A stretch of DNA of 64,000 nucleotides from Candidatus Sulfopaludibacter sp. SbA3. GTDB taxonomy: Bacteria; Acidobacteriota; Terriglobia; Bryobacterales; Bryobacteraceae. Within the stretch, counting starts at the first letter, position 1. Every line of letters starts with the position of its first letter. The notes below the pieces were generated by a model. That model searched no databases. It was not told the DNA's origin and saw only the letters and a list, made by a program, of their open reading frames with translations. Below are positions 2,976 to 18,760 of the stretch, in pieces. The position numbers and the translations under genes were made by a program. Location of the stretch: the NCBI GenBank assembly GCA_945890485.1, contig CAMDCN010000015.1:62001-126000 (forward strand). Reading direction: 5' to 3'.

Positions 2976-3809
2976 ATGCGCGCCTGTGTCCTCTTTCTTT
3001 TTGTGCTGCCGTTGTTGGCGGCGGATCCGCTGACCGAGAAGGTGACCGAGTGGAGAACGAAGTACGAAGCAGGGCTGAAGAGCGACACCGGATGGCTTTC
3101 GGTGGCGGGGCTCTATTGGCTCGAAGAGGGAGTGAATCCAGCCGGTACGGCGGCTTCGAACAAGATCGTTTTGCCGGCGGGGCCGGCGATGGCGGGGACG
3201 TTTGAGCGGGTGAGAGAGCGAGTTACTTGGAAGCCGGTGAACGGGCCGGCGAAGACTCTGCAATCGGACAAAGACGGCGCCAAGGCGGACCTGTTGACGA
3301 TTGACCGGTTGACGCTGTTTGTCATTAACCGGAACGGGAAGATTGGGCTTCGGATGCGGGACCCGCAATCGAAAATGCGGCGGGAGTTTCACGGGACGAA
3401 GTGGTTTCCGATTCGGCCACAGTATTCGCTGACCGGGCAGTTTAAGCCGTATGCGCAGAAAAAGATCGTGATGGTTCCGGATGTGACGGGGAATACGTTG
3501 CAGTATGCAAGCCCGGGAGAGGTGGAGTTTGCCGTGAACGGGCAGAAGCTGAACCTGGAGCCGGTGATTGACGAGGGGCAGTTGTTCTTTGTGTTCAAGG
3601 ACAAGACGGCGGGGAAGCAGACCTATGGCGGAGGGCGGATGCTGTATGCGCCGCTGCCGGGGCCGGATAACAAGGTGGAGTTGGAGATGAATATCGCGAA
3701 GAATCCGCCGTGTGCGTTTACGCCGTATGCGACGTGCCCGATTCCGACGAAGCGGAATACTTTGAATGTGGCGATTGAGGCGGGGGAGTTGGTTCAGCCG
3801 GGGCACTGA
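2976..3809 (+). CDS. DUF1684 family secreted protein
   Basis: 277-residue protein starting with a signal peptide (MRACVLFLFVLPLLAA). It contains the features of DUF1684: TEKVTEWR near the start, GWLSVAGLYWLEEG, the LRMRDPQS segment, GTKWFPIRPQY, a later VFKDKTAGKQTYGGGRML, and the C-terminal NPPCAFTPYATCPIPTKRN with two cysteines. Function is unknown in general; the family fold suggests a periplasmic or secreted protein. The ATG at 2976 is chosen because it begins the signal peptide and follows a -10-like hexamer; an upstream in-frame ATG at 2895 would add a non-signal extension. It appears monocistronic and is followed by a 119-base gap with nothing recognisable except the promoter of the next gene. 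Confidence 0.88.
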   Translation: MRACVLFLFVLPLLAADPLTEKVTEWRTKYEAGLKSDTGWLSVAGLYWLEEGVNPAGTAASNKIVLPAGPAMAGTFERVRERVTWKPVNGPAKTLQSDKDGAKADLLTIDRLTLFVINRNGKIGLRMRDPQSKMRREFHGTKWFPIRPQYSLTGQFKPYAQKKIVMVPDVTGNTLQYASPGEVEFAVNGQKLNLEPVIDEGQLFFVFKDKTAGKQTYGGGRMLYAPLPGPDNKVELEMNIAKNPPCAFTPYATCPIPTKRNTLNVAIEAGELVQPGH

Positions 3810-3928: not shown

Positions 3929-5875
3929 TTGATCTGCATTAGCGCCACGTTTACCGCCGAGCCGATCCAGCCGGTGTTGGAATTCTGGGGTCGCCAACTG
4001 GGCGAGCCGTGGACGATTGAATTCGCTCCTTACAATCAGGTTCTGCAGACGGTGCTGGACCCTGGTGGCCTGTTTGCCCAGAACCGGACCGGGGCCAACG
4101 TTGTCTTGGTTCGCTCCTCCGACCTGGCTCAATTCGAAGGCGCGACAGCGGCCGATGAGCAGGCGCGGTTGGACGAGCTGCTCTCGACATTGGAAACGCA
4201 GCGGTTTGCTGTGCCGACTCTGCTGGCGGTGTGCCCGCCTCGGCACGTGCGGGTGGCGCCGCGGGCGAATTTGTTCGTCGTGGATACATCGCTGTATCCG
4301 GTGGCAGAGTGGGCGGACGACGCGGCGGACCGGCTGGGCCGGATCCCGTATACCCCGGCTTACTTCGCTGCGCTCGGGACGGCGATTGCTCGGCTGCTTC
4401 ATGCGTTAAAGCGGCCTCCGTTCAAAGTGATTTCGCTGGATTGCGACCATACGTTGTGGGCTGGCGTGTGTGGAGAGGACGGGCCAACCGGCGTGACCAT
4501 CGATGAGCCTCGGCGGGTGCTGCAGGAGTTCCTGCTCACACAGCGCGACGCGGGGATGCTGTTGGCGCTCTCGTCGAAGAACAATCCGGACGATGTGTGG
4601 CAGACGTTCGAGGCGCATCCGGAGATGGTGCTGCGGCGGGAACACATCACAGCGCATCGGCTTTCGTGGGCGCCCAAATCGGAAGGGCTGCGGCAGATGG
4701 CCGCGGAGCTATCGCTGGGGGCGGACTCGTTTATCCTGCTCGACGACAATCCAAAGGAGATTGCGGAACTGGGGGAAGGCGCGCCGGAGGTGTTGGGATT
4801 GACGCTGCCGGAGGCGGGGATTCCTCACTATCTCGACCACGTTTGGGCGTTTGACCATCCGGTGGTGACGGAGGCGGATCGGGGGCGGGCGGCGAGCTAC
4901 CAATTGCAGCAATCGTTTGCGGCGGCGGCAAGCCTAGAGCACTTCTACGAGACGCTGCAACTGCAGGTGGATGTGCATTTGCTGCATCCGCATGAGCTGG
5001 CGCGGGCGGCGCAGATTACCCAGCGGACGAACCAATTCAACTTCACGACACGGAGGCGGACGGAGGCGGAGCTGGCGGGGTTGCCGGTCTTCTCGATTCA
5101 CGTGTCGGACCGTTTTGGCGACTATGGGTTTACGGGTCTACTGGTGGTGCAGGACGGGATTGTCGATACGTTTCTGCTGAGCTGCCGGGTGCTGGGGCGG
5201 GGCGTGGAACATGCGGTGGTGCGGTGGTTGGGGGAGCACTTCGCGGCGTTAACGTTTGAGTTAGTCCCGACGGCGCGGAACGCTCCGGCGCAGACGTTCT
5301 TCCGAGAGTTGACGGGGCAGGCACAGGGCACGGCGACGCTGAGCGGGGGGGAGATGCAGATGGTCGAATTTGCGGCTCCGGCGGCGGCTCCCGTGGCGGC
5401 GGTGACGCCGGTGGTGGTGGCGGACCGGTTCCACGACTATCAGCGGATTGCTACGCACCTCGATACGGTGGAACGGATTCAGGCGGCGATGTTGGCGGAG
5501 CAGATGCAAGCCGCGCCGGCGCGACAGGTGGCGAACCCGCCGGTGACGGATGCGGAGCGCCGGTTGGCGGCGATCTGGGCGGAGTTGCTGGGGCAGCCGG
5601 CAATTTCGACGGAGGACAACTTCTTCGATCTGGGCGGGCACTCGTTGCTGGCGGTGCTGCTGGTGACGCGGGTGCATGATGAGTTCGGAATGGAGTTGTC
5701 GATGGACGATGTCTATTCGGCGGACACGACCTTGGCGAAGCTGGCGCAGATTGTAGAGACGCAACACTTAAGCACGTATGACCCGGCAGAGGTGGCCGCG
5801 GTGATTGGTGAGATTGAATCGTTGTCCGATGATGAGGTTCGTTCCGAGATATCCCGCTTATGCGCGTTCTCTTAA
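3929..5875 (+). CDS. FkbH-like HAD-IIIC phosphatase fused to a carrier (PCP/ACP) domain
   Basis: 648 residues. The N-terminal ISATFTAEP segment, present only if translation begins at the TTG at 3929, is typical of FkbH-family proteins. The HAD-IIIC core has LDCDHTLW with Asp171 and Asp173, SSKNN, and FILLDDNPKEI near 270. It is followed by the GNAT-like half with QRTNQFNFTTRR and DRFGDYGFTGLL. Near 540-610 is a thiolation domain with DNFFDLGGHSLLAV, Ser572 being the phosphopantetheine site. FkbH enzymes load a glyceryl unit from 1,3-bisphosphoglycerate onto a carrier protein; here enzyme and carrier are in one chain. The next gene starts inside its last 16 bases. No adenylation, condensation or ketosynthase domain lies nearby, so the loaded unit is probably not extended by a standard assembly line here. 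Confidence 0.9.
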   Translation: MICISATFTAEPIQPVLEFWGRQLGEPWTIEFAPYNQVLQTVLDPGGLFAQNRTGANVVLVRSSDLAQFEGATAADEQARLDELLSTLETQRFAVPTLLAVCPPRHVRVAPRANLFVVDTSLYPVAEWADDAADRLGRIPYTPAYFAALGTAIARLLHALKRPPFKVISLDCDHTLWAGVCGEDGPTGVTIDEPRRVLQEFLLTQRDAGMLLALSSKNNPDDVWQTFEAHPEMVLRREHITAHRLSWAPKSEGLRQMAAELSLGADSFILLDDNPKEIAELGEGAPEVLGLTLPEAGIPHYLDHVWAFDHPVVTEADRGRAASYQLQQSFAAAASLEHFYETLQLQVDVHLLHPHELARAAQITQRTNQFNFTTRRRTEAELAGLPVFSIHVSDRFGDYGFTGLLVVQDGIVDTFLLSCRVLGRGVEHAVVRWLGEHFAALTFELVPTARNAPAQTFFRELTGQAQGTATLSGGEMQMVEFAAPAAAPVAAVTPVVVADRFHDYQRIATHLDTVERIQAAMLAEQMQAAPARQVANPPVTDAERRLAAIWAELLGQPAISTEDNFFDLGGHSLLAVLLVTRVHDEFGMELSMDDVYSADTTLAKLAQIVETQHLSTYDPAEVAAVIGEIESLSDDEVRSEISRLCAFS

Positions 5876-8800
5876 CTTCTAACGCTTCGTATGAACCGCC
5901 GCGCGGAGGGTCGACGCGGAGCAACTTGATTTGGCTGGAGGCTCTGGCCGCGGCGGGGCACGCGGTGCGCGTGGTGTGCCCGGCGCATGATGAAGCGGGG
6001 GAAACTACGCGCCGGGGCATTTCGATTTTGCGGGTGCCGGAGTTGACGCGGCACGTGGACCGGTTGGCGGCCGAGATTGAACAGTGGAAGCCGGACTGGG
6101 TGCTCGTTTCGAGCGAAGACCTGAGCCATGTGTTGTTGCGGGAGGCGTTTCGGGTGGCTCCGGGACGGTTGATTTTTGTGGCGCATACGCCGCAGTTCAT
6201 GCCGTTCGGGCCGGAGAGTTGGTACCCGGACGCGGCGGCGTCGGCGCTGGTACGGCAGGCGCGGGGCGTGGTGGTGATTGGGCGGCACATGGCGGGTTAT
6301 GTGCGGGAGCATCTGGGCGTGCAGCCGGTGGTGATCCATCCACCGATTTATGGGACGGCGCCTTGGCGGAATTTGGGCCGGTTCGATAACCGGTATGTGT
6401 TGATGGTGAACCCTTGTGTGGTGAAGGGTGTGACGGTGCTGGCAAATCTGGCGAAGCGGATGCCCCACTTGGAGTTCGCTGCGCTGGCGGGATGGGGGAC
6501 GACATCGGCGGACCGGGCATTGTTGGGCTCGCTGCCGAACGTGACGGTGTTCGAGTCGGTGCCGGATATTGAGGATGTGCTGGGGCAGGCACGGCTGCTG
6601 CTGATGCCATCGCTTTGGTACGAAGGGTTTGGTCTGATCACGATGGAGGCGATGCTGCGGGGATTGCCCGTGGTGGCTTCGAACTCGGGGGGCTTGGCGG
6701 AGGCGAAAGCGGGAACGGGGTACGTGATTCCGGTGCAGCCGATCACGAAGTACTTGTCGGACTTTGACGAGAACCATATGCCGCGGCCCGTGGACGTGGA
6801 GCAGGACCTGACGTTGTGGACGGCGGCGTTGGACGAATTGACGACGAACGAGACGGCGTGGGAGGCCGAGGCGGCGAAGTCGCGGGCAGCGGCGGAGCGG
6901 TTCGTATCGGCGTTGGATGCGAATGATCTGGAGAGGTATCTGGTCTCGCGGCGGAAGCTGCGGGTGCTGCTGGCGCATAATTCGCTGTACTATCCGTCGG
7001 CGGGAGGCGGGGACAAGTCGAACCGGCTGTTGATGGAGGCGTTGGCGGCGCGGGGCCATCATGTGCGGGTGGTGACGCGGGTGGAATCGTTTGGCGAGCC
7101 GGACCATGCGACGTACTTGAATGCGCTGGCGACGCGGGGCGTTAGTCCGATGGTGGGGGAGACGGAGGTTACGTTTTCGCTGAAGGGCGTGGATGTGCGG
7201 ACGTTGACGCGGAGTCCATTGTGGCGCCCGTATTTTCAGCGGCAGATTGATGAGTTTGATCCGGACGTGATTGTGACGTCGACGGATGACCCGGCGCAGT
7301 TGTTGTTCGATTTAGCGGTGCGGGCTCCGCGGGCGCGCGTTGTGTACTTGATTCGGGCGACGATTGCGGTTCCATTTGGGCCAGACAGTTCGGGGGTCCA
7401 CGAAGAGCGGACGCAGTTGCTGGCGCAGGCGGATGGCGTGGTGGGGGTGTCGCACTACGTGGCGGGTTATGCGCGGGAGCACGGAGGATTGTCGCAGGCG
7501 ATCCACGTTCCGATTTCGCTACTGGAGCCGGGACCGGCTCCAGTGTTGGGGAGGTTCGACAACCCGTATGTGTTGATGGTGAACCCGTGCGCGGTGAAGG
7601 GGATCGCCATTTTGCTTGGGTTGGCGGATGCGATGCCGGAAGTGACGTTTGGGGCGGTGGCTTCGTGGGGGACGACGCACGAGGACATGGCGGAGTTGGA
7701 GAAGCGGCCGAACATTCGGATTTTGCCGCGGACGGACAACATCGACGAGTTGCTGGCGCAAAGCAGGGTGACGCTGGTGCCTTCAGTTTGGGCCGAGGCG
7801 CGGAGCCGGATGGTGCTGGAAAGTTTGTCGCGGGGCGTGCCGGTGCTGGGGGCAAACGTCGGCGGATTGCACGAGGCGATGCTGGGCGTTCCGTATCTGC
7901 TGCCGGTGAATCCGGTGACCGTGTACCGAGGGTCGGTGGATGAGCATATGGTTCCGGTGGCCGAGGTGCCGCCGCAGAATCTGGAGCCCTGGATTGAGGC
8001 ATTGCGGCGGTTGACGACGGACCGGCGGCATTGGGAGAAGCTGTCGGCGTTGTCTCGCGAGAAGGCGCTGCACTATATGGAGAATTTGAACGTGCTGCCA
8101 TTTGAGGCCTACTGCGAGAGCTTGCAGCATCAGCCGAAGCGGGGGGTGGCGGCGCGCGAGACTGGTGCGGGGCCGTTGGCGCGGCTGAGTTCGGAGCGGC
8201 GCCGGCTGCTGGAATTGCGCCTGAAGGAACGGGCAGCTTGGATGCCGACGGTGCCGGCGCGGGGCCGGCGGGTGTTCTGTTTTCCGTGGGCGGGCGCGGG
8301 GCCGTTGGCGTATCGGGGATGGCAGGAGCGGTTGGGGGCGGAGTTAGCCTTGATTCCGATTCGGTTGCCGCAGCGGGAGTGGTCGGGAATCGGGGAACTG
8401 GTGGAGCAGTTGGCCCGGCAGGTGAAGCCGTTGTTGACGGAAGATGCCGTGTTCTTCGGGCACTCGATGGGGGCGGGGTTGGCGTTCGAAGTAGCTCGGC
8501 GGGTGGCGCCGTCGGCGCTGGTGGTTTCGGCGGCGCGGGCGCCGAAGTTCCGGATTGGGTATGTGCCGCCGGCGGAGCCGACTGATGAAGAGTTGTTGGC
8601 GCAGTTGGATCGGCTGGGCGGGGCACCGCGGGAACGGCTGGAGGCTTTGTTGCCGGCGTTCCGGCGGGATACGCGGCTGTTCCGGCGCTGGGTCTATGAG
8701 CCGGGGGAGCTGTTGACGGCCCCAGTGGTGGCGTTGGGCGGGGCGGAGGATCCGCAGGTGACGGCGGAGCATCTGGCTCCTTGGGCTGAGGTCACAGCGG

Positions 8801-8925
8801 GTTCGTTTTCGCAGCGGACGTTTGCTGGGGGGCACTTTTACTTCCAGACGAATGGCTCGTTTTTTGAGGAGTTGGTGGCTATACTCCACTCATGCGCGCT
8901 TCCTGTTTCGGCCTCTTTTTCCTGA
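5860..8925 (+). CDS. Trifunctional fusion: GT4 - GT4 - type II thioesterase
   Basis: 1021 residues in one frame. Residues 1-360 and 365-745 are two GT4-type glycosyltransferases related by internal duplication: both have RFDNxYVLMVNPCxVKG, xWGTT, a GYxREH motif and a GT4 E-x7-E pair (Glu255 in EGFGLITMEA; Glu646/Glu654 in EARSRMVLE). Residues 760-785 (LSSERRRLLELRLKERA) look like the linker found at the edge of NRPS modules. Residues 790-1010 are a type II (RifR-like) thioesterase with FCFPWAGAG, GHSMGA (Ser869), Asp964 in GGAEDP and His992 in GGHFYF, so the catalytic triad is intact. It overlaps the FkbH-carrier gene by 16 bases and is presumably made with it. Inference: it glycosylates a carrier-bound unit twice and releases or edits it. 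Confidence 0.9.
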   Translation: MRVLLTSNASYEPPRGGSTRSNLIWLEALAAAGHAVRVVCPAHDEAGETTRRGISILRVPELTRHVDRLAAEIEQWKPDWVLVSSEDLSHVLLREAFRVAPGRLIFVAHTPQFMPFGPESWYPDAAASALVRQARGVVVIGRHMAGYVREHLGVQPVVIHPPIYGTAPWRNLGRFDNRYVLMVNPCVVKGVTVLANLAKRMPHLEFAALAGWGTTSADRALLGSLPNVTVFESVPDIEDVLGQARLLLMPSLWYEGFGLITMEAMLRGLPVVASNSGGLAEAKAGTGYVIPVQPITKYLSDFDENHMPRPVDVEQDLTLWTAALDELTTNETAWEAEAAKSRAAAERFVSALDANDLERYLVSRRKLRVLLAHNSLYYPSAGGGDKSNRLLMEALAARGHHVRVVTRVESFGEPDHATYLNALATRGVSPMVGETEVTFSLKGVDVRTLTRSPLWRPYFQRQIDEFDPDVIVTSTDDPAQLLFDLAVRAPRARVVYLIRATIAVPFGPDSSGVHEERTQLLAQADGVVGVSHYVAGYAREHGGLSQAIHVPISLLEPGPAPVLGRFDNPYVLMVNPCAVKGIAILLGLADAMPEVTFGAVASWGTTHEDMAELEKRPNIRILPRTDNIDELLAQSRVTLVPSVWAEARSRMVLESLSRGVPVLGANVGGLHEAMLGVPYLLPVNPVTVYRGSVDEHMVPVAEVPPQNLEPWIEALRRLTTDRRHWEKLSALSREKALHYMENLNVLPFEAYCESLQHQPKRGVAARETGAGPLARLSSERRRLLELRLKERAAWMPTVPARGRRVFCFPWAGAGPLAYRGWQERLGAELALIPIRLPQREWSGIGELVEQLARQVKPLLTEDAVFFGHSMGAGLAFEVARRVAPSALVVSAARAPKFRIGYVPPAEPTDEELLAQLDRLGGAPRERLEALLPAFRRDTRLFRRWVYEPGELLTAPVVALGGAEDPQVTAEHLAPWAEVTAGSFSQRTFAGGHFYFQTNGSFFEELVAILHSCALPVSASFS
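8880..8885 (+). promoter_or_regulatory. -10-like hexamer TATACT, leaderless start of amidohydrolase
   Basis: TATACT lies inside the 3' end of the glycosyltransferase-thioesterase gene and ends six bases before the ATG at 8892. It would give the amidohydrolase its own leaderless transcript despite the 34-base gene overlap. Confidence 0.45.
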
Positions 8926-10181
8926 CGGTTTCGTCGTTTGCCCAAGTGGTGGTGTTGAAGGCTGACCGGTTGTTTGACGGGCAGTCGAACGCGGTGGTGT
9001 CGCCGGGGGTGGTGGTGATCAACGGGACGCGTATTGAGAGCGTGAATCCTTCGGGGCCGCTGCCGGTGGGGGCGCGGGTGATTGAGTTGGGCGATGCGAC
9101 ACTGCTGCCGGGATTCGTGGATGCGCATACGCATTTGCGTGGCGGGGCGCAGGGGGATAGCGCGGCACGGCAGCTATCGGGTTTGACGCAGTCGGTTCCG
9201 GAGCGGGCACTTTCGGCGGTGCCGATGGCGCGGATTACGCTGCGGGCCGGGTTCACGACGATTCGGGACTTGGGTGGGTCGCAGTTTCTGAACATTGGGC
9301 TGCGGGAGGGGATCAACAAGGGGTACGTGGAGGGGCCGCGGATGTTAACCGTGGTGAACTCGATTGGGACGACGGGCGGGCATTGCGATTCGACGAACGG
9401 TTACTTGCCGGGCGTGTTGGGGGAGGGGATGGAAAATCCGGCGGTGGCGAATGGGCCGGACGGAATGCGGGCGGCGGTGCGGTGGAATGTGAAGAACGGG
9501 GCGGACGTGATTAAGGTGTGCGCGACAGGAGGCGTGATGTCGCTGAACAACGATGTGGATTCACCGCAGTTGACACAGGTGGAGATGAACGCGCTGGTGG
9601 ACCAGGCGCACAGCATGGGGAAGAAGGCCGCGGCCCATGCGCACGGGCCGGAGGGAGCGAAGCGGGCGATCCGGGCGGGGATTGATTCGATTGAGCACGG
9701 GTCGTTTTTGGATGATGAGGGGCTGCGAATGATGGTGGAGAAGGGGACCTACTATGTGCCGACGCTGATGGCGTACGAGGGCGTGAAGGAGGGGATTGCC
9801 GGGGGACGGTTGGATCCGCGAGTGGTGCGGAAGGGGAAGTTGGCTTTGGACGCGATTGACTTGACGGTGCGGCGGGCGATTGCGGCGGGGGTGAAGATTG
9901 CATTCGGGACGGATGCGGGGGTGTATCCGCATGGGCGGAACGCAGGGGAGTTCCGGTTGCTGGTGGAGCACGGGATGACGCCGGCGGGGGCATTGCGCGC
10001 AGCGACGAGTGTGGCGGCGGATCTGTTGGGGGTGGCGGACAGGTTGGGGACGCTGACCGCGGGGAAGATTGCGGACGTGGTGGCGGTGCCGGGGGATCCG
10101 GTGGCGGACATTCGGCAGACGGAGAAGGTGTTCTTCGTGATGAAAGAGGGGACGGTGTACCGGAACGACCGGGCGCGTTAG
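8892..10181 (+). CDS. Secreted metal-dependent amidohydrolase (imidazolonepropionase/prolidase-like)
   Basis: 429 residues with an N-terminal signal peptide (MRASCFGLFFLTVSSFAQ). Amidohydrolase superfamily motifs are present: DAHTHLRGG (first metal pair), GADVIKVCATGG (the Lys that is carboxylated in this family), AAHAHGPEGAKRAIRAG and SIEHGSFLDDEG (His ligands), and FGTDAGVYPHG (Asp). It closes with the usual metal-independent strand, LGTLTAGKIADVVAVPGDP. Such exported enzymes are generally annotated as Xaa-Pro dipeptidase-like or imidazolonepropionase-like; the real substrate is not visible. It starts inside the preceding gene by 34 bases and ends with a 4-base convergent overlap with the TetR gene. 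The link to the upstream biosynthetic pair may be positional only. Confidence 0.9.
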   Translation: MRASCFGLFFLTVSSFAQVVVLKADRLFDGQSNAVVSPGVVVINGTRIESVNPSGPLPVGARVIELGDATLLPGFVDAHTHLRGGAQGDSAARQLSGLTQSVPERALSAVPMARITLRAGFTTIRDLGGSQFLNIGLREGINKGYVEGPRMLTVVNSIGTTGGHCDSTNGYLPGVLGEGMENPAVANGPDGMRAAVRWNVKNGADVIKVCATGGVMSLNNDVDSPQLTQVEMNALVDQAHSMGKKAAAHAHGPEGAKRAIRAGIDSIEHGSFLDDEGLRMMVEKGTYYVPTLMAYEGVKEGIAGGRLDPRVVRKGKLALDAIDLTVRRAIAAGVKIAFGTDAGVYPHGRNAGEFRLLVEHGMTPAGALRAATSVAADLLGVADRLGTLTAGKIADVVAVPGDPVADIRQTEKVFFVMKEGTVYRNDRAR

Positions 10182-11247: not shown

Positions 11248-12177
11248 GTGCGGGTACTCGTAACCGGGGTCAGCGGGTTCGTCGGCGGGGCGCTCGGGAG
11301 GTATCTACGGGCCCAGGGGTATTCCGTGACTGGGGTTAGCCGGAGCGCGCCGCGCGAAGGGGCTTGCTGTGAGTTTTTGCCTTTTGATTTAACGTCTGGG
11401 GCCGTGCCGGGGAGTTATGACGCAGTGGTGCATTGCGCGGCGCGGTCGTCGCCTTGGGGCCGCCGGAAAGAATTCTGGCGGCAGAATGTTTGGGCGACGG
11501 TGAACACGCTGCGAGTGGACGCCGGCCATTTCGTGTTCGTCTCGTCGAGCAGCGTGTACTACCGGTGGGGAGACCAACTGGGTCTAACAGAGGAGTCGCC
11601 TTTGGCGCAGACTCCATTGAACGAGTACGCCTGGACCAAGATCGTGGCAGAGCGGAATGTGCGGGCCTCGCGGCGGCCGACGGCCATTGTGCGGCCGCGG
11701 GCGGTGTTTGGGCCGGAGGATACGGTGCTGTTTCCGCGACTGCTGCGGGCGGCGAAGAAGGGGATGCTGCCGCGATTCGGGGATCGGGAACCGGTTGGGG
11801 ATTTGATCTACATCGAGAATCTTTGCTTCTTGTTGGAGCGGGTGCTGGCGGTGGGGGCGACAGGGGATTTCAACGTGACGAACGGTACACCGGTGGGTTT
11901 GTGGACGTTCTTGAACGAAGTGTTTACGGGGTTGGGATATCCAGCTTTGGGGCGGCGAGTGCCGGTGGGGTTGGCGATGCGGTTGGCGCGGGGGATGGAG
12001 ATGTTGTCGTCGGCGACGGGTTGGTGGGAGCCGCCGATTACGCGGTTTGGCGTGGAGGTGATGGCGCATTCGAAGACGTTCGATGTGGGGAAGGCGAATG
12101 CGGTGTTGGGGCGGCCGCCGGTGTCGAACGAGGAGAGCTTGCGGAGGTTTGTCGAATGGCAGTCGCGGTTTATCTAG
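11248..12177 (+). CDS. NAD-dependent epimerase/dehydratase (SDR family)
   Basis: 309 residues from a GTG start. The extended-SDR nucleotide motif VTGVSGFVGGALGRYL is at the N-terminus. VVHCAARSSPWG follows, then FVSSSSVYY with the catalytic Ser region, and NEYAWTKIVAE carries the YxxxK pair. The later FGPEDTVLFPRLLRAA and NVTNGTPVGLW are typical of sugar-nucleotide or sterol/hopanoid-type epimerases. It is the first of four genes that overlap head to tail with three glycosyltransferase-related genes, so it probably supplies or modifies a sugar or lipid headgroup. The exact substrate is not evident. The next gene begins 22 bases before its stop. Confidence 0.88.
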   Translation: MRVLVTGVSGFVGGALGRYLRAQGYSVTGVSRSAPREGACCEFLPFDLTSGAVPGSYDAVVHCAARSSPWGRRKEFWRQNVWATVNTLRVDAGHFVFVSSSSVYYRWGDQLGLTEESPLAQTPLNEYAWTKIVAERNVRASRRPTAIVRPRAVFGPEDTVLFPRLLRAAKKGMLPRFGDREPVGDLIYIENLCFLLERVLAVGATGDFNVTNGTPVGLWTFLNEVFTGLGYPALGRRVPVGLAMRLARGMEMLSSATGWWEPPITRFGVEVMAHSKTFDVGKANAVLGRPPVSNEESLRRFVEWQSRFI

Positions 12178-13208
12178 CGCTGCTGGTGGTGCGGGTCGGA
12201 TTGGCTTGGTGGATGGTGCGGCGAGGGGCGGCGGAGGCTTGGCAGGGACCGGTGACTGTCTTGCAGCCGATCCTGGCGGGGGATCCGAAGTTGGAAGGCT
12301 GCTTGGCGGCGAACCTGGCGGGGAATCCGGGGGTTCGGTTCGTTTGGTTGGTGGATGAGGATGACGCGTTGGGGTGCGAGATCGTGGGGCGCCTGGCGAA
12401 TGATCGGGTGACCGTGATCGTGGGCCCTCCGCCGGCGCAGGGGGAGAATCCAAAGATCGCAAAGTTGGCTCGGGTTGATCTGAATGCTGGCGTCGTCGTG
12501 GTTTTGGACGATGACACCTCCATCGAGGAGGCTTCGTTGCGGCAGTTGACGGGGGCGGATCTGGTCACCGGGTTGCCCGTGTTCGTCGATGCGGGGACCG
12601 TGTGGGAACGGTTGGTGGGCGGGTTTGTGAATGGGTCGGCTATCCTGACGTATCTCCCGGCGGCGGCCGTGGGGGCGCAGCGTACGATCAACGGGATGAT
12701 CTACGCAACCCCGGCGGCGACATTGTGGGAGGTAGGCGGGTTTGGGGCTGTAGTCGATTGCCTGACCGATGACTATGCCATGGCGAAGCTGTATGAGGGC
12801 AACGGAAAGAGCCTCCGGCAGGCACCAGTGTTTGCGCGGGTGACAATGACGATCGCCTCGGCGGGGCACTGCGGGCGGGTGATGCGGCGGTGGCTTATTT
12901 TTGCGAACCGGTATCTCGCAGAGAATTTGACTGTGGGTTCGTTCTGTCTGGTGGTGCTGCCTGCTCTGCTGCCTTGGGTATTGGTCAGCACGGGATGGGG
13001 CTGGGTACTGTTGGTGAAGGCCGTGGTGAACCGGGTCTGCTTGTGGCGGTGGGCGGGGGTGCGGAGCGGAATCGGGGATCTCTTGTTTGAAGTCGTGGCG
13101 GATTTGGCTTTGCCGCTTCTGTACCTGAGTTCGTTGGTACGGCCGGGCCAAATGAGCTGGCGGAGCCGGCAGATCGATGTTTCGGACGGGAGGATCCGGT
13201 ACCGGTGA
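12156..13208 (+). CDS. GT21-like (ceramide glucosyltransferase/HpnI-like) membrane glycosyltransferase
   Basis: 350 residues from the ATG at 12156; the same frame is open far upstream, but only as an overlap with the epimerase. An N-terminal membrane helix (MAVAVYLALLVVRVGLAWWM) is followed by a GT-A domain with TVLQPILAGD, FVWLVDEDDA, VVVLDDDTSI (DxD-type metal site), VDCLTDDYAMA (catalytic Asp) and RVMRRW, matching the (Q/R)xxRW signature of ceramide glucosyltransferase-like enzymes. Two or more helices follow (LVVLPALLPWVLVSTGW; LLFEVVADLALPLLYL). The family transfers a hexose or HexNAc from UDP-sugar to a lipid at the cytoplasmic face. It overlaps its neighbours by 22 and 4 bases, within a coupled operon. 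Confidence 0.88.
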   Translation: MAVAVYLALLVVRVGLAWWMVRRGAAEAWQGPVTVLQPILAGDPKLEGCLAANLAGNPGVRFVWLVDEDDALGCEIVGRLANDRVTVIVGPPPAQGENPKIAKLARVDLNAGVVVVLDDDTSIEEASLRQLTGADLVTGLPVFVDAGTVWERLVGGFVNGSAILTYLPAAAVGAQRTINGMIYATPAATLWEVGGFGAVVDCLTDDYAMAKLYEGNGKSLRQAPVFARVTMTIASAGHCGRVMRRWLIFANRYLAENLTVGSFCLVVLPALLPWVLVSTGWGWVLLVKAVVNRVCLWRWAGVRSGIGDLLFEVVADLALPLLYLSSLVRPGQMSWRSRQIDVSDGRIRYR

Positions 13209-13780
13209 CGTACTTTGAGCGGCTGAGGGCGTTGGATGAAGCAGGGACCCTGCTGACGCCGGTAGACCGGCGGGTGATGATTTTGACCGGGCAGAGTTCG
13301 TGGAGGTCGGCGCGGTTGAGTCCAGAGCAAGAGGCGTTTCTGGACGCCGTGACGCCGGCCGGGTGGACAGCGGTGCGGGCGGGATTTCCTTATCATTCCT
13401 CGATGATGGGGGAAACGTTTGAGGAGGCCTCCGTAATTGCGGCTGGCTGGCGGAATGCGGCGCAGGTGGCGATGTCCTTGGGATCGCGCCCGTATCGGGA
13501 GGTAGTGCGGTGGGTGCTGCAGCGAGCGATGGATACGACGCGGGTCCAACTGCGGATCGTGACGGGGAGTTGCGGGCTGCAGTTGTTGAACTGCGTCTGG
13601 GGTGAATTGCGGGGGGAGGCAGAGGTTATGGCGTTGGGGCCGGCTTGCTTCGGCAAGCTGCGGGTTCCTGCGAAGGTGGTAATGGGCGACAGGGACGGGT
13701 GGAGCCGGCTATTTTACTGGGGCCGGGTGGACCAGCGGGTACCCTGCGGGCATTTGGACTATTGGCGGGTGGTGCGATGA
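13205..13780 (+). CDS. Unknown protein in glycolipid operon
   Basis: 191 residues from GTG at 13205, which overlaps the previous stop as GTGA. I do not recognise a family. Visible features: MILTGQSSW and later VTGSCGLQLLN, which read like beta-strand/turn segments of an alpha/beta fold; VAMSLGSRPYREVVRWVLQRA as a helix; and a C-terminal GHLDYWRVVR. There is no signal peptide and no obvious membrane span. The stop (TGA 13778-13780) overlaps the ATG of the GT1-like gene as ATGA. Being locked by overlaps between two glycosyltransferases suggests it acts in the same pathway, perhaps as a small hydrolase or lipid-handling protein; that is inference only. Confidence 0.75.
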   Translation: MTYFERLRALDEAGTLLTPVDRRVMILTGQSSWRSARLSPEQEAFLDAVTPAGWTAVRAGFPYHSSMMGETFEEASVIAAGWRNAAQVAMSLGSRPYREVVRWVLQRAMDTTRVQLRIVTGSCGLQLLNCVWGELRGEAEVMALGPACFGKLRVPAKVVMGDRDGWSRLFYWGRVDQRVPCGHLDYWRVVR

Positions 13781-14910
13781 GGATCGTGTTTGTGGCTCCT
13801 CCGTTCGCGGGGCATCTGTATCCGCAGGTTCCGTTGGCGCAGGCGGCTCGAGAGGCGGGGCATACGGTGGCGTTCGTGACGGGGGAGCGGAAGCGGGCGG
13901 TGTTGGCGGCACGGGGATTCGAAACTTTGCCGCTAGCAAGCGTCCCGGAGGGAGCGATGGAGGCGATTGCAAATCCGCCTCATCGGGTGGGGAGTAACCC
14001 ACGATTATTGATGCAGCAGTTGCGGGCGAATTTGGGTTTGATGCCCGGGATTCGAGGGGACCTTCGACGGTTGTTCGCGGCCTGGCGGCCGGACGTTGTG
14101 GTAGCGGATTTCGTGGCTCCGGTGGGCGGTTTCGTAGCGCAGGAGATGGGGCTTCCTTGGGTGACGACGATTCCGAGTCCTTGCGTAATTGAGAGCAAGC
14201 GAGGGACGCCGGTCTACTGCGGCGGGTGGACTCCGGGATGGCGTTTGCGGGATTGGCTAGGGCGAATGGCGATTCGTGGATTCAAGCGGGGTGTGAAAGC
14301 GTGGTTGGGTGCGGAGTTCCGGTCGGCGGGGGTTCCGGAGCTGTGGCGGGCGGACGGATCAGAGGTGGTGTATTCGCCGGAGGCAATCTTAGGGCTGGGG
14401 ATCCGGGAGTTGGAGTTCGAACGCGATTGGCCGGCGTGTTTCGAGATGATCGGGCCGCTAGTGGAAGACCCCGAGGATTGGCCCGCGATGGAGTACCCGG
14501 CGGGGAAAAAGGTTTTGGTGACGCTGGGAACGCATCTGTTCTGGGCGAAGGAACGGCTGCGGGTGCCGGTGGCGGACGGAGTATCGATGGTGGTGGCGGG
14601 TTCGAAGGAGTATCCGTTTGTGCCCTATGCGCGGGACTTGGGGGAATTCGATGCCGTCGTGCATCATGGCGGTACGGGAATTAGTTATGCCGCGATTCTG
14701 GCGGGGAAGCCAAGCTTAGTTTGGCCGCAGGATTTCGACCAGTTTGACTACGCGGCTCGGGTGGAGTGGTTTGGGGCGGGGACGCGGCGCGGGACGGTGG
14801 AGGAGTTGCTGGCACGGGATTGGCCCCGGCTCAGGCTGTTACAGGCCGCGGCGCGGGCGTACCGGCCTCGGGAAGTGTTTGTGGCGCGGATAGAGACGAT
14901 AGTTCGATAA
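13777..14910 (+). CDS. GT1-like (MGT/UGT type) glycosyltransferase
   Basis: 377 residues from the ATG at 13777. The N-terminal Rossmann half starts FVAPPFAGHLYPQVPLA, with the conserved 'GHLYP' motif of glycosyltransferase family 1. The donor half has KKVLVTLGTHLF and the family signature VVHHGGTGISYAA followed by GKPSLVWPQDFDQFDYA, the UDP-sugar-binding region with its D/Q pair. These enzymes glycosylate lipids or small molecules. Fourth and last gene of the overlapping cluster that begins with the epimerase. With the GT21-like enzyme it suggests stepwise assembly of a glycolipid. The final acceptor is not evident from sequence. Confidence 0.9.
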   Translation: MRIVFVAPPFAGHLYPQVPLAQAAREAGHTVAFVTGERKRAVLAARGFETLPLASVPEGAMEAIANPPHRVGSNPRLLMQQLRANLGLMPGIRGDLRRLFAAWRPDVVVADFVAPVGGFVAQEMGLPWVTTIPSPCVIESKRGTPVYCGGWTPGWRLRDWLGRMAIRGFKRGVKAWLGAEFRSAGVPELWRADGSEVVYSPEAILGLGIRELEFERDWPACFEMIGPLVEDPEDWPAMEYPAGKKVLVTLGTHLFWAKERLRVPVADGVSMVVAGSKEYPFVPYARDLGEFDAVVHHGGTGISYAAILAGKPSLVWPQDFDQFDYAARVEWFGAGTRRGTVEELLARDWPRLRLLQAAARAYRPREVFVARIETIVR

Positions 14911-15035
14911 GGGTGCGTATGACGCGGCGCATTTTGTAACACAAATATGCCGCAGCCGTTACTCGCCAAAGGCTGGCGATGAGTACCTGTGTTACTCTGT
15001 TACCTTCCCAATCGAAATTAGAAGCAGGTTACTCA
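14911..15035 (+). other. Short intergenic gap before GT-C gene
   Basis: 125 bases without a recognised gene. An in-frame ATG at 14979 could extend the next gene by 19 residues. I prefer 15036, which has a purine-rich AGCAGG about eight bases upstream. No clear terminator was seen. Confidence 0.4.
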
Positions 15036-16973
15036 ATGACGGATACTTCTCCGCCCAGCCGGCCGGATGACGCCTTGTCACGTTATACCGCGCGGGCCAT
15101 TGATGCAATGGATCGCCATGCCTTCCTGGGTTTGTTGGTGGCAATTGCCTTTTGGGCCGGCTATTCTCTTTATCACTGGGTCGCCGATCTGAAGTTTCCG
15201 CTCGCGATGTATTTCCATTTGAGTTGGGACGAGTTTCAATATATTCGAATAGTGCGGATGTACCAGGAGGCACTTCGGCAAAACGGCTGGGCGTCGTTCC
15301 TTTCTTTTTCGGAGCCATTCGGATATGGGACGTTGTTCTGGCAAATCTATTCGCTGCTGTCGTATCCGTTCCTTGGTGACCCGAATGACCCGAGCGCCGG
15401 ATTCCTTCTCTCGCTGCGGACAATTACTCTGTTCCTTCAGGCGGGATGCCTGGTTCTGACATGGAAGATTCTGGGCGCGCTGGGATACGCTGGGCGAGGA
15501 CAAAGCATTGCGATGGCCTTGCTGGCGCCGATGAGCGGCTTGCTCTTGCTGTACAAGCCATTCAGCCCAGACTATCTGGCCGTCTTTCTGATCCTGCTGG
15601 CTGGGTGGATTGCTCTGCGCAGTCCCCGGCCAGTCTGGCTCGTGTTTTTGCTGATTGGAGCTGGATGTGCCACGAAGCTAACAAATTTACTACTCTTGCC
15701 GGCGGTCGTGACGATGATGCTTTTATACCGTCGCGAATCCCGTAACCTGGCGGTGGCGGTGCCGGCGTTTCTTTTGGGATTTCTGCTGGCCAATACGGAT
15801 GTTGCCATGGCGGGAACAATGCAGCCGTACGTTGAACGCTTGCGCGGATTGTCGGCCCAGATGAACGATCCAGCCTACATGCACGCGATCAAACCTGCTT
15901 CCCGGTTCAACTATGTTCTGACCTGGCTGACGAATTCGAATGGCCGTTTTGTGGATATCAACAGCCCTGGGATTGCGCGCGAGTTCCTCTCCTATCCGGT
16001 CCTCTTATTCTCTGTTGGAACGATCCTTGCATTTTGGCGCACCCGAGCAATTCTCTTGATTGGCGGGACGGGGTTGGCCGCGCTTTTCGCCATGATGGTG
16101 ACGACAAACAGGGTATGGACCTGGTACGTGATCTTGCCGGTATTCCTGGTGGCGATGGGAGCAGCCATGGGGCTGGAACGATTGAGCCGAACTCGCGCGG
16201 CGATCGCAGTTGTCGGTGTGGTTTGCTGTCACTTATTGGTCTCGGGAATCAGTTTGATCCAGAAATCCCAAGCGTTCGCTGAGAGCAGAACGGCGGTGGA
16301 GGTGGCCGAGCGGGTGCACTTTTATGAGGAGTGCGTGTTGCCCAACCGAAGTTTGATACAGGCCCTGCGACCGGACGGACTGGTCGTGCAGTTTGGCGTT
16401 CCGATAGAGCCGGTTCTGAACCCGCAGACGGTTTGCTGGGAGTCCCGTTCGATTCTGCCGTGCGTAACGCCAAGAATAAAGACGCTATTGCTGTACAAGC
16501 CTTCGCCATCCGACCATGCCGTCCTGGAGAAGGAGTTTTCGGTGAGTTCTTGTGGAAATGTGGGAAGGCTTTACCATCGCAAAGACGTTCCGGAGAAGGG
16601 GTGCCAAGGGCGATTTGAAGAGGGGTGGTATGACCGGGAGGGCGGCGCCGGCGAATGGTGGCACTGGTCCTCCAAGTTAGGGAAGATCGTCCTGGCGAGC
16701 AGCGTTCGAGAGAAGCTCACCATCAAAGGCGCAGTGGGCAGCGTGATGCCGGGAAATGTTTTGGAGGTTCGTCTAGATGGGAAGCGATGGCGGGAGATTC
16801 CGCTGGATGGTCTCGTTAACCTGACTGTCGAACTAACTGGAACTCCCCGGCAGTTGGAACTGCGGAGCCGGAAAGACGGAATCTCGTTGCCGCCAGACAC
16901 CAGGACGTTCGCCGTGCGCGCCAGAAACTTTGTAATTTCCGGAGAGAATTCCGGTGCCTGTGAAGTTCGGTAG
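15036..16973 (+). CDS. Polytopic GT-C (GT39/PMT-like) glycosyltransferase
   Basis: 645 residues from ATG 15036. After a short cytoplasmic N-terminus, the first membrane helix (HAFLGLLVAIAFWAGYSLY) leads to an external loop with FHLSWDEFQYIRIVRM. The acidic Asp-Glu there is the expected catalytic or metal site of GT-C enzymes. About nine to eleven hydrophobic segments follow up to residue ~410 (for example LFLQAGCLVLTWKILGALGY, LAVFLILLAGWIAL, WYVILPVFLVAMGAAMGL). The remaining ~230 residues form a soluble, probably periplasmic domain with several cysteines. Likely transfers a sugar from a polyprenyl-phosphate donor to a lipid, glycan or protein. Its base composition is less G-rich than the upstream cluster, so it may be a separate unit. 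Confidence 0.75.
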   Translation: MTDTSPPSRPDDALSRYTARAIDAMDRHAFLGLLVAIAFWAGYSLYHWVADLKFPLAMYFHLSWDEFQYIRIVRMYQEALRQNGWASFLSFSEPFGYGTLFWQIYSLLSYPFLGDPNDPSAGFLLSLRTITLFLQAGCLVLTWKILGALGYAGRGQSIAMALLAPMSGLLLLYKPFSPDYLAVFLILLAGWIALRSPRPVWLVFLLIGAGCATKLTNLLLLPAVVTMMLLYRRESRNLAVAVPAFLLGFLLANTDVAMAGTMQPYVERLRGLSAQMNDPAYMHAIKPASRFNYVLTWLTNSNGRFVDINSPGIAREFLSYPVLLFSVGTILAFWRTRAILLIGGTGLAALFAMMVTTNRVWTWYVILPVFLVAMGAAMGLERLSRTRAAIAVVGVVCCHLLVSGISLIQKSQAFAESRTAVEVAERVHFYEECVLPNRSLIQALRPDGLVVQFGVPIEPVLNPQTVCWESRSILPCVTPRIKTLLLYKPSPSDHAVLEKEFSVSSCGNVGRLYHRKDVPEKGCQGRFEEGWYDREGGAGEWWHWSSKLGKIVLASSVREKLTIKGAVGSVMPGNVLEVRLDGKRWREIPLDGLVNLTVELTGTPRQLELRSRKDGISLPPDTRTFAVRARNFVISGENSGACEVR

Positions 16974-16980
16974 AGCAGTT

Positions 16981-18000
16981 CTAGCGTAGGACAACGGCTG
17001 GCGGAGCAGAAGGCGGATCCGTCAGCCAGGGTGCGATGAGGGTGTTCTGTGGGTCGAAGAGGCGCTGGAAGCGGCGGTGCTTTTGCCCGGGGGGCGGGGC
17101 GTAATCGAACTGGACAGTGAAGTCGTCGTAGTCGTTCTGGAGGAGGGCGGCGCCGGGGGGGAGCAGGGGGTCGAGTTCGAGGGGGAACTTGGGAGGACGG
17201 TCTTTGAAGATCATCAGATCCTGCAGGCGGCCTTCGATAGTCTCGACCGCGGTGAAGGGGCTTCGACAAGGGCAACGCGGGGCTAGAATCAGGACGTCGT
17301 TGACTCTTTGGCTGGACTGAGGTTGGGTCTGGCGGACGAGGTCCGTGACGATGGGGAGGACGCGGCGGGGATCATGCTGGAACGGTCGGAACTGGAAGGT
17401 GAGGAGATCTTCGTTGAGATGGTAGCGGCCTTGAGGGCAGCCGTAAGCAAGGAAGCCCTCGCGGGCTTGGTAGAGGCCTCGGGGGGCGACGTTGAACTTT
17501 TGAGTTAAGGTTTGGCGATCGGCCGGGAAGAGCGGTTCGGCGCCGGCTAGAACCGTATGGGGGCGCAGACCGTCGGGGAGCTTGAGGAGGACGCTGGGCG
17601 GGCCGACGAGTACGTTGGGTTGCCAGGCGAGCAGATCGGGGTACGGCGGCGTGAGGCTGTAGTAGCGGAGACCGCGGACGCCGGCATAGAGACGGTTGTT
17701 GTGTTTAAGAAACAGCGCGACGCGGAGGCCCAGGAGCCGGTGCGGCGGGATGTATTTGCCGAGGATGTTGCCGGCCCAGCGGGCGCGTTCGGCGGGAGTG
17801 GTGATGAAGACGCCGGGGGCGCCGGTGGTGCCGGAGGAGAGGCCGAAGCTGTAAGGCGGAAGGGGCGAGACGCCGGTGGCGAGTTCCTGTTCGGCGAAGG
17901 CGCGGGCCTGGGCGTCCGTTATGGCGAGGGGTGGGGCAGGCGGGACGCGGAGGGTCCGGAGCCGGCGGGCGGCGAGGTAGGCGCGGAGGAGGTCAAGCAT
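16981..18000 (-). CDS. F390 synthetase-like adenylate-forming enzyme
   Basis: 339 residues. The adenylate-forming P-loop is present as SFGLSSGTTGAPGVFITTP at about residues 51-69. It is followed by NNRLYAGVRGLRYYSL and the VLAGAEPLFPADRQTLTQ segment characteristic of PaaK/CapK/F390-synthetase relatives, and ends with a short DLMIFKDRPPKFPLELDP region. The protein is shorter than phenylacetate-CoA ligase (about 430 residues), lacking part of the C-terminal subdomain, as in the 'putative adenylate-forming enzyme' clade. Activates a carboxylate with ATP; substrate unknown. It overlaps the upstream MBL-fold hydrolase by eight bases, so the two are probably functionally paired. It is convergent with the GT-C gene, with a 7-base gap. 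Confidence 0.82.
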   Translation of the reverse strand: MLDLLRAYLAARRLRTLRVPPAPPLAITDAQARAFAEQELATGVSPLPPYSFGLSSGTTGAPGVFITTPAERARWAGNILGKYIPPHRLLGLRVALFLKHNNRLYAGVRGLRYYSLTPPYPDLLAWQPNVLVGPPSVLLKLPDGLRPHTVLAGAEPLFPADRQTLTQKFNVAPRGLYQAREGFLAYGCPQGRYHLNEDLLTFQFRPFQHDPRRVLPIVTDLVRQTQPQSSQRVNDVLILAPRCPCRSPFTAVETIEGRLQDLMIFKDRPPKFPLELDPLLPPGAALLQNDYDDFTVQFDYAPPPGQKHRRFQRLFDPQNTLIAPWLTDPPSAPPAVVLR

Positions 18001-18760
18001 GGGAGGGGAGGAGCGGGAGATCCGGGCGGCGGCGGTGGAGAGCGTGCAGCTTTTCGAGGGTGGCGAGGATGGTGGGGCGGTGCCCGAGGATGCGGAGTGC
18101 GGGTTCAGCGGGTAGAGAGAGTTCGGTGATGTTAGTGAGGACCCAGGCGGCGTCGGCGACGAGGAACGTCTCGGTGCCGTCGTGGTGGCGGCAGAGAAGA
18201 CCGTGTTGCCCTAGCGCGTGGCCGGGCAGAGGAACGGCCAGTAGGGAGCCGTCGTTCAGAATGTCATAGGCTTCGGTGAAAGGGGCGAGATTGGGCGGAG
18301 TGACGCGCGGGCAATCTTCGATGGCTCGGGAGGTGAAGGATGGGGGCAGGAGTTCGGGGAGGAAGGCATGGCGGGAACGTTGGCAGGGCGACAGGGCGCG
18401 GAGCTGGTGGAGCGCTTCGCGGGAGTGATAGAGCGGAACGGCGGGGAGCCCGCGGAGGCCGCCGATGTGATCGGGGTGGAAGTGGGAGAGGAAGATGGCG
18501 GAGAGGCCGTCGGTAGGGAGGGGGTCTGGCGAGAGTGTGAAGGGGAGTAGGCAGCGGTAGAGGCGGGCGGGCAGGCTACGCGATTCCGCGAGGTGGGTGC
18601 CGTAGCCGGTATCAAACAGAATGAGTCCGGCCTTGGGGTGGCGGAGAGCGGCAACCAGCGCGGGCAGAGTGATCTTCCCGAAGCCGCGGGCGCGATCGAC
18701 GAACCAAGCGCGCTCGCGGCAGTGGCCACCGGAGTGGAGCGTGAGGTCGACGTAGGGCAT
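17993..18760 (-). CDS. Metallo-beta-lactamase-fold hydrolase
   Basis: 255 residues. The HxHxDH metal motif is present as FLSHFHPDHIGGL near residue 91. GLILFDTGYG precedes it, and PGHALGQHGLL and FLVADAAWV supply further ligands (His and Asp). The C-terminal HALHRRRPDLPLLPSHA gives the last His. Typical of quorum-lactonase-like or glyoxalase II-like hydrolases. First gene of a two-gene minus-strand unit with the adenylate-forming enzyme. Pairing with an acyl-activating enzyme suggests a thioester or lactone substrate, but this is inference. A -10-like TAGCCT (revcomp of 18768-18773) lies seven bases upstream of the ATG. Confidence 0.9.
   Translation of the reverse strand: MPYVDLTLHSGGHCRERAWFVDRARGFGKITLPALVAALRHPKAGLILFDTGYGTHLAESRSLPARLYRCLLPFTLSPDPLPTDGLSAIFLSHFHPDHIGGLRGLPAVPLYHSREALHQLRALSPCQRSRHAFLPELLPPSFTSRAIEDCPRVTPPNLAPFTEAYDILNDGSLLAVPLPGHALGQHGLLCRHHDGTETFLVADAAWVLTNITELSLPAEPALRILGHRPTILATLEKLHALHRRRPDLPLLPSHA

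Follow-up and report, generated by a model that had tools for sequence, protein, structure and literature searches.

Two coupled genes of Bryobacteraceae, an FkbH-carrier gene and a GT4-GT4-thioesterase gene: a candidate glyco-assembly line

The two genes and their active sites

The stretch of DNA analysed here (called the window below) is 64,000 nucleotides long and corresponds to bases 62001-126000 of a contig (C15) from the draft genome of Candidatus Sulfopaludibacter sp. SbA3 (7.13 Mb, 97.43% complete), a member of the Bryobacteraceae. It carries two genes overlapping by 16 bases: the first encodes an FkbH domain fused to a carrier domain and the second two glycosyltransferases of family GT4 (GTa and GTb) fused to a thioesterase (TE) (Table 1). 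Both open reading frames (ORFs) had been singled out in an original prediction made from the sequence, and both match the families named there. The same 16-base overlap is found in the called genes of six relatives (L043-L046, L048 and L049). We propose that the two genes form a stripped-down line of nonribosomal peptide synthetase (NRPS) type, on which glycerate would be loaded, glycosylated twice while carrier-bound and released, a reading to which we give about an even chance.

Table 1. Coordinates of the two genes and their parts in the window (pLDDT, predicted local distance difference test)
Feature	Positions	Strand	Description
FkbH (HAD-IIIC) + carrier protein	3929..5875	+	648 aa, TTG start; ORF list, Pfam/NCBIfam matches
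FkbH domain	4421..5323	+	TIGR01686, residues 165-465; Cys181 (module signature), Cys419 (all FkbHs compared)
Carrier domain	5558..5752	+	PF00550, residues 544-608; Ser572 codon 5642-5644
Post-carrier C-terminal helices	5783..5869	+	Residues 619-647; conserved motif near LSDEEVRxLL; putative docking role
GT4-GT4-thioesterase fusion	5860..8925	+	1021 aa, ATG start; first 16 bases within FkbH gene
GTa, GT4-type glycosyltransferase	5860..6954	+	Residues 1-365; E255-X7-E263
GTb, GT4-type glycosyltransferase	6955..8169	+	Residues 366-770; E646-X7-E654
Helical linker preceding TE	8191..8223	+	Low confidence (pLDDT <50); by eye like the GT-to-condensation linker of NRPS L148
Type II-like thioesterase	8269..8886	+	Residues 804-1009; Ser869, Asp964, His992

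Relatives were taken as the best 80 of 118 from a scan of public genome contigs (L-numbered loci), and their domains were mapped by tblastn. For residue conservation, the window was counted in every set except that of the carrier, and rows that were short or broken were excluded (L085 for FkbH; L051 for GTa; L110 for GTb; L050, L051, L113, L114, L120 and L121 for TE, leaving the window and 72 relatives).

The FkbH domain scores 229.9 bits against TIGR01686 (cut-off 146.65), which places it in the FkbH family. Its HAD aspartates (D171, D173, D272 and D273) and the cysteine of the conserved SCR motif, Cys419, are kept in 66 of 66 rows and Cys172 in 63. Cys181 is present in 65 of the 66 module FkbHs vs none of the five non-module FkbHs compared. 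Ser572 of the carrier, the serine named in the original prediction, sits in FFDLGGHSLL, and the GGxS-type motif is kept in all 67 rows. The predicted model of this protein has a mean pLDDT of 85.1 (13 sequences); its FkbH part is structurally similar to 3slr and its carrier to NRPS carrier domains. Among the NRPS core domains (adenylation, A; condensation, C; thiolation, T), only T was found in the window module with Pfam and NCBIfam, and the module is therefore not an NRPS in the strict sense.

The TE scores 103.2 bits against PF00975 (cut-off 26.4) and has the Ser/Asp/His triad of this family at the predicted residues: the serine and the histidine are kept in 73 of 73 rows and the aspartate in 71 (Glu in the other two). 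The glutamates of the GT4 motif EX7E are kept in 71/71 and 70/71 rows for GTa and in 80/80 for GTb, in agreement with a GT4 assignment of both domains. In the predicted model of the fusion (mean pLDDT 79.0; 7 sequences), the solved structures nearest to the TE are the type II thioesterases RedJ, RifR and BorB, and the GT domains match retaining GT4 enzymes such as BshA, MshA and PimA. Structural prediction, put forward as a check in the original prediction, thus agrees with its domain assignments. Since Foldseek returned only generic retaining GT4s, no sugar donor can be named.

Both glycosyltransferases are GT4 enzymes, as first described, but they are not recent duplicates. In a joint tree (36 rows each), GTa and GTb form separate clades, which indicates that they are old paralogues and that their duplication is older than the fusion; GTb of relatives matches the window GTa at 33-38% identity. 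GTa and GTb are fused in 18 of the 72 rows scored and split in 54. The fused or split state changes at least seven times on the best quick GTb tree, a rough number because many of its branches are weak. In contrast to discrete, free-standing type II thioesterases, the TE is fused to GTb in the window, and the two are a single called gene in 77 of the 78 loci holding both (L047 was missed by the gene caller). Genes that are joined again and again to the same neighbour commonly act together.

Conservation of the module and its long forms

The FkbH-carrier, GTa, GTb and TE parts occur in that order and on one strand at 66 of the 80 loci, GTa being mostly a separate gene; the co-occurrence in other genomes proposed as a check was thus borne out. 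One of these loci, L076, has an extra gene between GTa and GTb-TE (L076:4795-5997), aldo/keto reductase-like by eye. Among the 14 loci that are not complete, eight begin less than 500 bases from a contig end (L072, L079, L080, L089, L103, L110, L111 and L120), in L051, on a 3-kb contig, GTa is cut, L122 begins 523 bases from an end and shows no TE, and the other four are weighed below. In L117 (4121-6254) and L122 (553-2602), GTb stands without an adjacent TE or FkbH and is followed by a methyltransferase-like gene (by eye). The relatives are labelled Acidobacteriota in 78 of the 80 cases. The exceptions, L051 (Phycisphaerales) and L068 (Arcobacter), carry module sequences that are closely related and are probably mis-binned contigs of metagenome-assembled genomes.

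In a search of 61 genomes with GT-GT-TE, GTa-GTb-TE was found in 20 of 37 genomes of the same family (12 fused, one of them cut at 916 of 1021 residues, and 8 split) and in none of the 24 others; a TE-only piece in G033 was excluded from the count. Furthermore, among 12 family genomes of good quality, hand-picked as each having an FkbH match, nine have GTa and GTb-TE (the TE match of G112 being partial), always with FkbH directly upstream on the same strand. In this set, G140 and G222 gave no GT-GT-TE match and G082 only the TE part. The module is compact and is also found in single-contig genomes. The ratio of nonsynonymous to synonymous substitution rates (dN/dS) of the window genes vs those of two congeners (L049 and L044) is 0.10-0.15, and the module genes are under purifying selection. 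This ratio and the recurrence of the gene order indicate that the locus is not due to chance. The module is conserved across much of one family and is not a single oddity.

Besides the short form, to which the window and 62 of the 66 loci with all five domains belong, four of the 80 loci have further domains ahead of FkbH, in the order fatty acid-AMP ligase (FAAL), carrier, C, FkbH, carrier. Three are complete once upstream sequence is added (L096/L130, L115/L131 and L108/L132) and have GTa and GTb-TE close behind; in the fourth (L121/L133), cut by a contig end, only carrier-C precedes FkbH. The complete long-form proteins are single called ORFs of 1817-1857 aa with an AMP-binding part, a FAAL-like C-terminal part, carrier, C, FkbH and carrier. 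For instance, L132 scores 209.8 bits for AMP-binding and 262.4 bits for Condensation in Pfam, and the best NCBIfam match of its first part, after a broad model of NRPSs and polyketide synthases (PKSs), is fatty-acid--AMP ligase, at 423 bits vs a cut-off of 775. The HHxxxD motif of the C domain is kept in all four.

The same order, FAAL, acyl carrier protein (ACP), C, FkbH and T, is that of vioprolide initiation in Cystobacter, where the C domain joins a fatty acid to carrier-bound glycerate through an ester bond and FkbH is held to load the glycerate, according to the available part of the source (PMC8949500). Corramycin initiation, as described in the part of PMC10099666 at hand, has this architecture as well, with FkbH again held to load glycerate. 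The presence of FAAL-carrier-C before FkbH in four relatives therefore ties the module to NRPS initiation of the vioprolide/corramycin type; for these relatives, a glycolipid becomes the most likely class of product. The two systems differ in what follows: as far as these excerpts go, the vioprolide line continues into peptide modules and corramycin initiation feeds a 12-module NRPS-PKS, with no mention of a GT-GT-TE partner in the latter, whereas the module described here continues into two GT4s and a TE. The window form differs further from vioprolide in having no FAAL, first carrier or C domain.

Whether the short form lost the lipid arm or the long form gained it was examined in trees. Long forms branch early for GTb (supports of 80 and 85 in the joint tree and of 86 in the GTb tree, where L078 is also basal) and lie all on one side of the first split of the FkbH tree (support of 14). 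In the GTa part of the joint tree, they are a well-supported clade nested within short forms. These trees establish neither loss nor gain. A FAAL or C domain encoded elsewhere in the window genome was also considered and rejected: neither Condensation (PF00668) nor PF23024, to which the C-terminal parts of the long-form FAALs belong, gave a match in this genome (97% complete). Therefore, the short form either runs without a lipid arm or gets its lipid otherwise. This absence would also suit a module that is decaying in the window genus, left over from a long-form glycolipid line and no longer yielding a product. We regard such decay as extremely improbable, given the low dN/dS, the intact active sites and the predominance of the short form among complete loci.

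A further explanation concerns the TE, which might act only in proofreading by clearing misloaded carriers, the product being passed on to a separate acceptor or a different synthase, for instance a PKS-like protein encoded elsewhere in the genome. The type II nature of its closest solved relatives is in line with this, and the window genome does encode, on contig C23 (L137:8382-15569, minus strand), a 2395-aa protein, unlinked to the module, whose start resembles a ketosynthase (KS) by eye and whose C-terminus matches a thioesterase at 27% identity. However, GTb and TE are one called gene at nearly all loci that have both, and tblastn with the long-form FAAL and C found matches in only the four loci above, KS domains not having been sought in the flanks. 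Hence, we consider a purely editing TE quite improbable.

Neighbouring genes and relatives outside the family

A gene resembling phosphopantetheinyl transferases (PPTases) follows the TE in 17 of the 80 loci by tblastn (16 by called genes). A representative protein is over the cut-off of the Pfam PPTase N-terminal family and under those of ACPS and NCBIfam. This neighbour fits a carrier-based pathway. Directly after the TE, 14 loci (L053 and 13 others) have a convergent gene for a transporter of the major facilitator superfamily (MFS). Moreover, a gene for an HprA-like D-2-hydroxyacid dehydrogenase (309-318 aa) lies downstream of the module in ten of the 80 loci (L079, L081, L085, L088, L090, L093, L094, L106, L109 and L120), several of which then have GFO/IDH-like oxidoreductases (by eye). 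Neither the MFS nor the HprA-like neighbours were counted as module members.

The HprA-like neighbours would suit an FkbH that loads an acid other than glycerate, for instance a modified or different phosphoacid, which the rest of the line would then use. Cys181, nearly universal in module FkbHs and absent from the others compared, also suggests that the substrate could be shifted. However, the HAD aspartates and Cys419 are kept throughout, and the available parts of PMC8949500 and PMC10099666 link the FAAL-ACP-C-FkbH-T order to glycerate. We therefore judge another acid to be decidedly unlikely.

In a phylum survey of 396 genomes (three candidates scored per genome, E up to 1e-40), 31 genomes matched, 28 of them by the TE part; the GT part matched only in the window genome, G318 and G450. 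A wider module outside the family is thus not supported, an absence that is not firm because only three candidates were scored per genome. In G318, from another Acidobacteriota family, a GTb-like domain opens a 2952-aa NRPS with the order GT-C-A-T-C-A-T-TE (L148:8203-17061). The linker after this GT, LTPEQRALLLQRLRKK, resembles the linker before the window TE, LSSERRRLLELRLK, as judged by eye and unscored. These observations support a possible NRPS origin of the GT-TE half.

They also bear on another explanation, in which the GTs would work on a separate acceptor, assembling a glycan or glycolipid there, and the carrier would be no scaffold but the donor of a glyceryl or acyl-glyceryl ester transferred by the TE-like domain. 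Proteins with an alpha/beta-hydrolase fold can indeed act as acyltransferases, and the second FkbH of the genome adjoins a stand-alone carrier-like gene in surroundings that are polysaccharide-cluster-like by eye. On the other hand, the module stands alone: beyond its own proteins, 14 families recur in the flanks and none of the eight viewed is polysaccharide-polymerase-like, although the MFS transporter does recur. In addition, GTb and TE share one gene, the TE resembles hydrolytic type II enzymes and a relative of GTb forms the first domain of an NRPS. We hold a separate acceptor to be unlikely.

The second FkbH of the window genome (L023:9244-11130, contig C8 of G000) is 36% identical to that of the module over the matched part; given its neighbours, it was not counted as part of the module's pathway. 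Next to the module, the last 34 bases of the GT-GT-TE gene are shared with an amidohydrolase gene (8892-10181), which adjoins the module in G001 (L037) and not in G010 (L040). In L048 (2159-4927; same genome as L036), a homologue of the gene upstream of the module in the window (2976-3809) is seemingly in frame with FkbH-carrier, as one called ORF of 922 aa. Farther downstream, genes grouped at 11248-18760 encode an OleD-like reductase, an HpnI-like and a macrolide-GT-like glycosyltransferase, an adenylate-forming protein related to F390 synthetase and a metallo-beta-lactamase-fold protein. The NCBIfam matches of this group are below cut-off, and it is possibly a separate lipid or natural-product cluster.

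Proposed mechanism and comparison with known systems

In the line that we propose, FkbH would load a glyceryl unit, taken, judging by its family, from 1,3-bisphosphoglycerate, onto the phosphopantetheine of its own carrier (Ser572). The GT-GT-TE protein would dock to the carrier protein, GTa and GTb would add two sugars from nucleotide donors to the tethered unit, and the TE would hydrolyse the product off the carrier as glycosylated glycerate, so that the window genome probably makes an unacylated diglycosyl-glycerate. In the long-form relatives, the FAAL would put a fatty acid on the first carrier and the C domain would esterify it to carrier-bound glycerate before the sugars are added, giving an acylated diglycosyl-glycerate, that is a glycolipid. 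The scheme of a carrier-bound hydroxyacid that is glycosylated twice and released by the TE, already put forward in the original prediction, still fits best and is strengthened by the linkage, the active sites and the PPTase-like neighbours. Its chemistry, from the acid loaded and the sugars to the docking, the sequence of steps, the release, the product and its role, is inferred.

Several points weigh against this scheme. The case for glycerate loading and for glycosylation on the carrier is built from sequence, and Cys181 could mean a substrate other than the expected one. Type II thioesterases are often editing enzymes, and the TE resembles the discrete members of this group. GT and/or TE parts without an adjacent FkbH, a case that had been named in advance as telling against the coupling, do occur where upstream room is available but are rare (4 of 80 loci: L074, L098, L100 and L117); no FkbH match was obtained in the L100 draft genome, and the single one in the L098 draft is not of the module type. 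No match to the PPTase N-terminal family PF22624 was found in the window genome, other PPTase families not having been sought. Finally, glycosylated lipopeptides made with an FkbH module, the cystomanamides, are already known from the part of PMC8949500 available.

Taken further, the proposal leads to a glyco-assembly line in which GTs would replace condensing modules and a diglycosyl-glycerate would be built on a carrier, with or without an ester-linked fatty acid: a thiotemplated route of the Bryobacteraceae that would have evolved from components of NRPSs and, in the window genus, have shrunk to two genes. We advance this wider idea tentatively, its chance being somewhat short of even. The established roles of carrier proteins lie in the assembly of peptides, polyketides and fatty acids. 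If the idea is true, the Bryobacteraceae would make glycolipids and sugar-glycerate solutes by a thiotemplated route; with a C3 acid glycosylated while carrier-bound, thiotemplate logic would reach sugars as well, and a new class of glycolipid or solute would be predicted in abundant and poorly understood soil bacteria.

The original prediction knew of no described pathway with this gene set. We likewise found no description of the whole set in open-licence literature, whereas the opening domains of the long forms do match vioprolide and corramycin initiation. Other systems share single features with the module. Cystomanamides combine FkbH glycerate loading with a lipidated and glycosylated product but come from a lipopeptide NRPS line, according to the same excerpt of PMC8949500. 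In the suomilide/banyaside pathway, BslA has FkbH and carrier as a starting module and glycosylation comes later; unlike here, NRPS modules are present and a separate GT is proposed to glycosylate the released peptide, as stated in the accessible part of PMC13122637. The tetronate glycerate-utilisation operon (an FkbH-like protein and a stand-alone ACP) makes glyceryl-ACP from 1,3-bisphosphoglycerate, but a FabH-like enzyme moves the glyceryl unit into the tetronate ring and, in the portion of PMC7489565 consulted, no GTs act on the carrier. BshA, the GlcNAc-malate synthase of GT4, shows that this fold can glycosylate a small hydroxyacid; it is among the top structural matches and is the top NCBIfam match of the fusion. 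However, the fusion scores 64.3 bits vs a BshA cut-off of 273.7 bits, and the acceptor of BshA is free malate.

The product class, glycerate with two sugars and then acylation, is shared with mycobacterial diglucosylglycerate and its octanoyl ester made by OctT (a primer of MGLP). The route described in the available part of PMC4555173 differs, since it starts from 3-phosphoglycerate via GpgS and GpgP, with no carrier step mentioned there, and OctT acylates the second glucose and not the glycerate. Within the module, where both GTs hit Pfam models of GT4 type, no pair of a GpgS-type GT and a phosphatase is seen (the rest of the genome was not searched for GpgS). As far as that excerpt allows, mycobacterial diglucosylglycerate and its octanoyl ester are the closest compounds of this class that we found in print.

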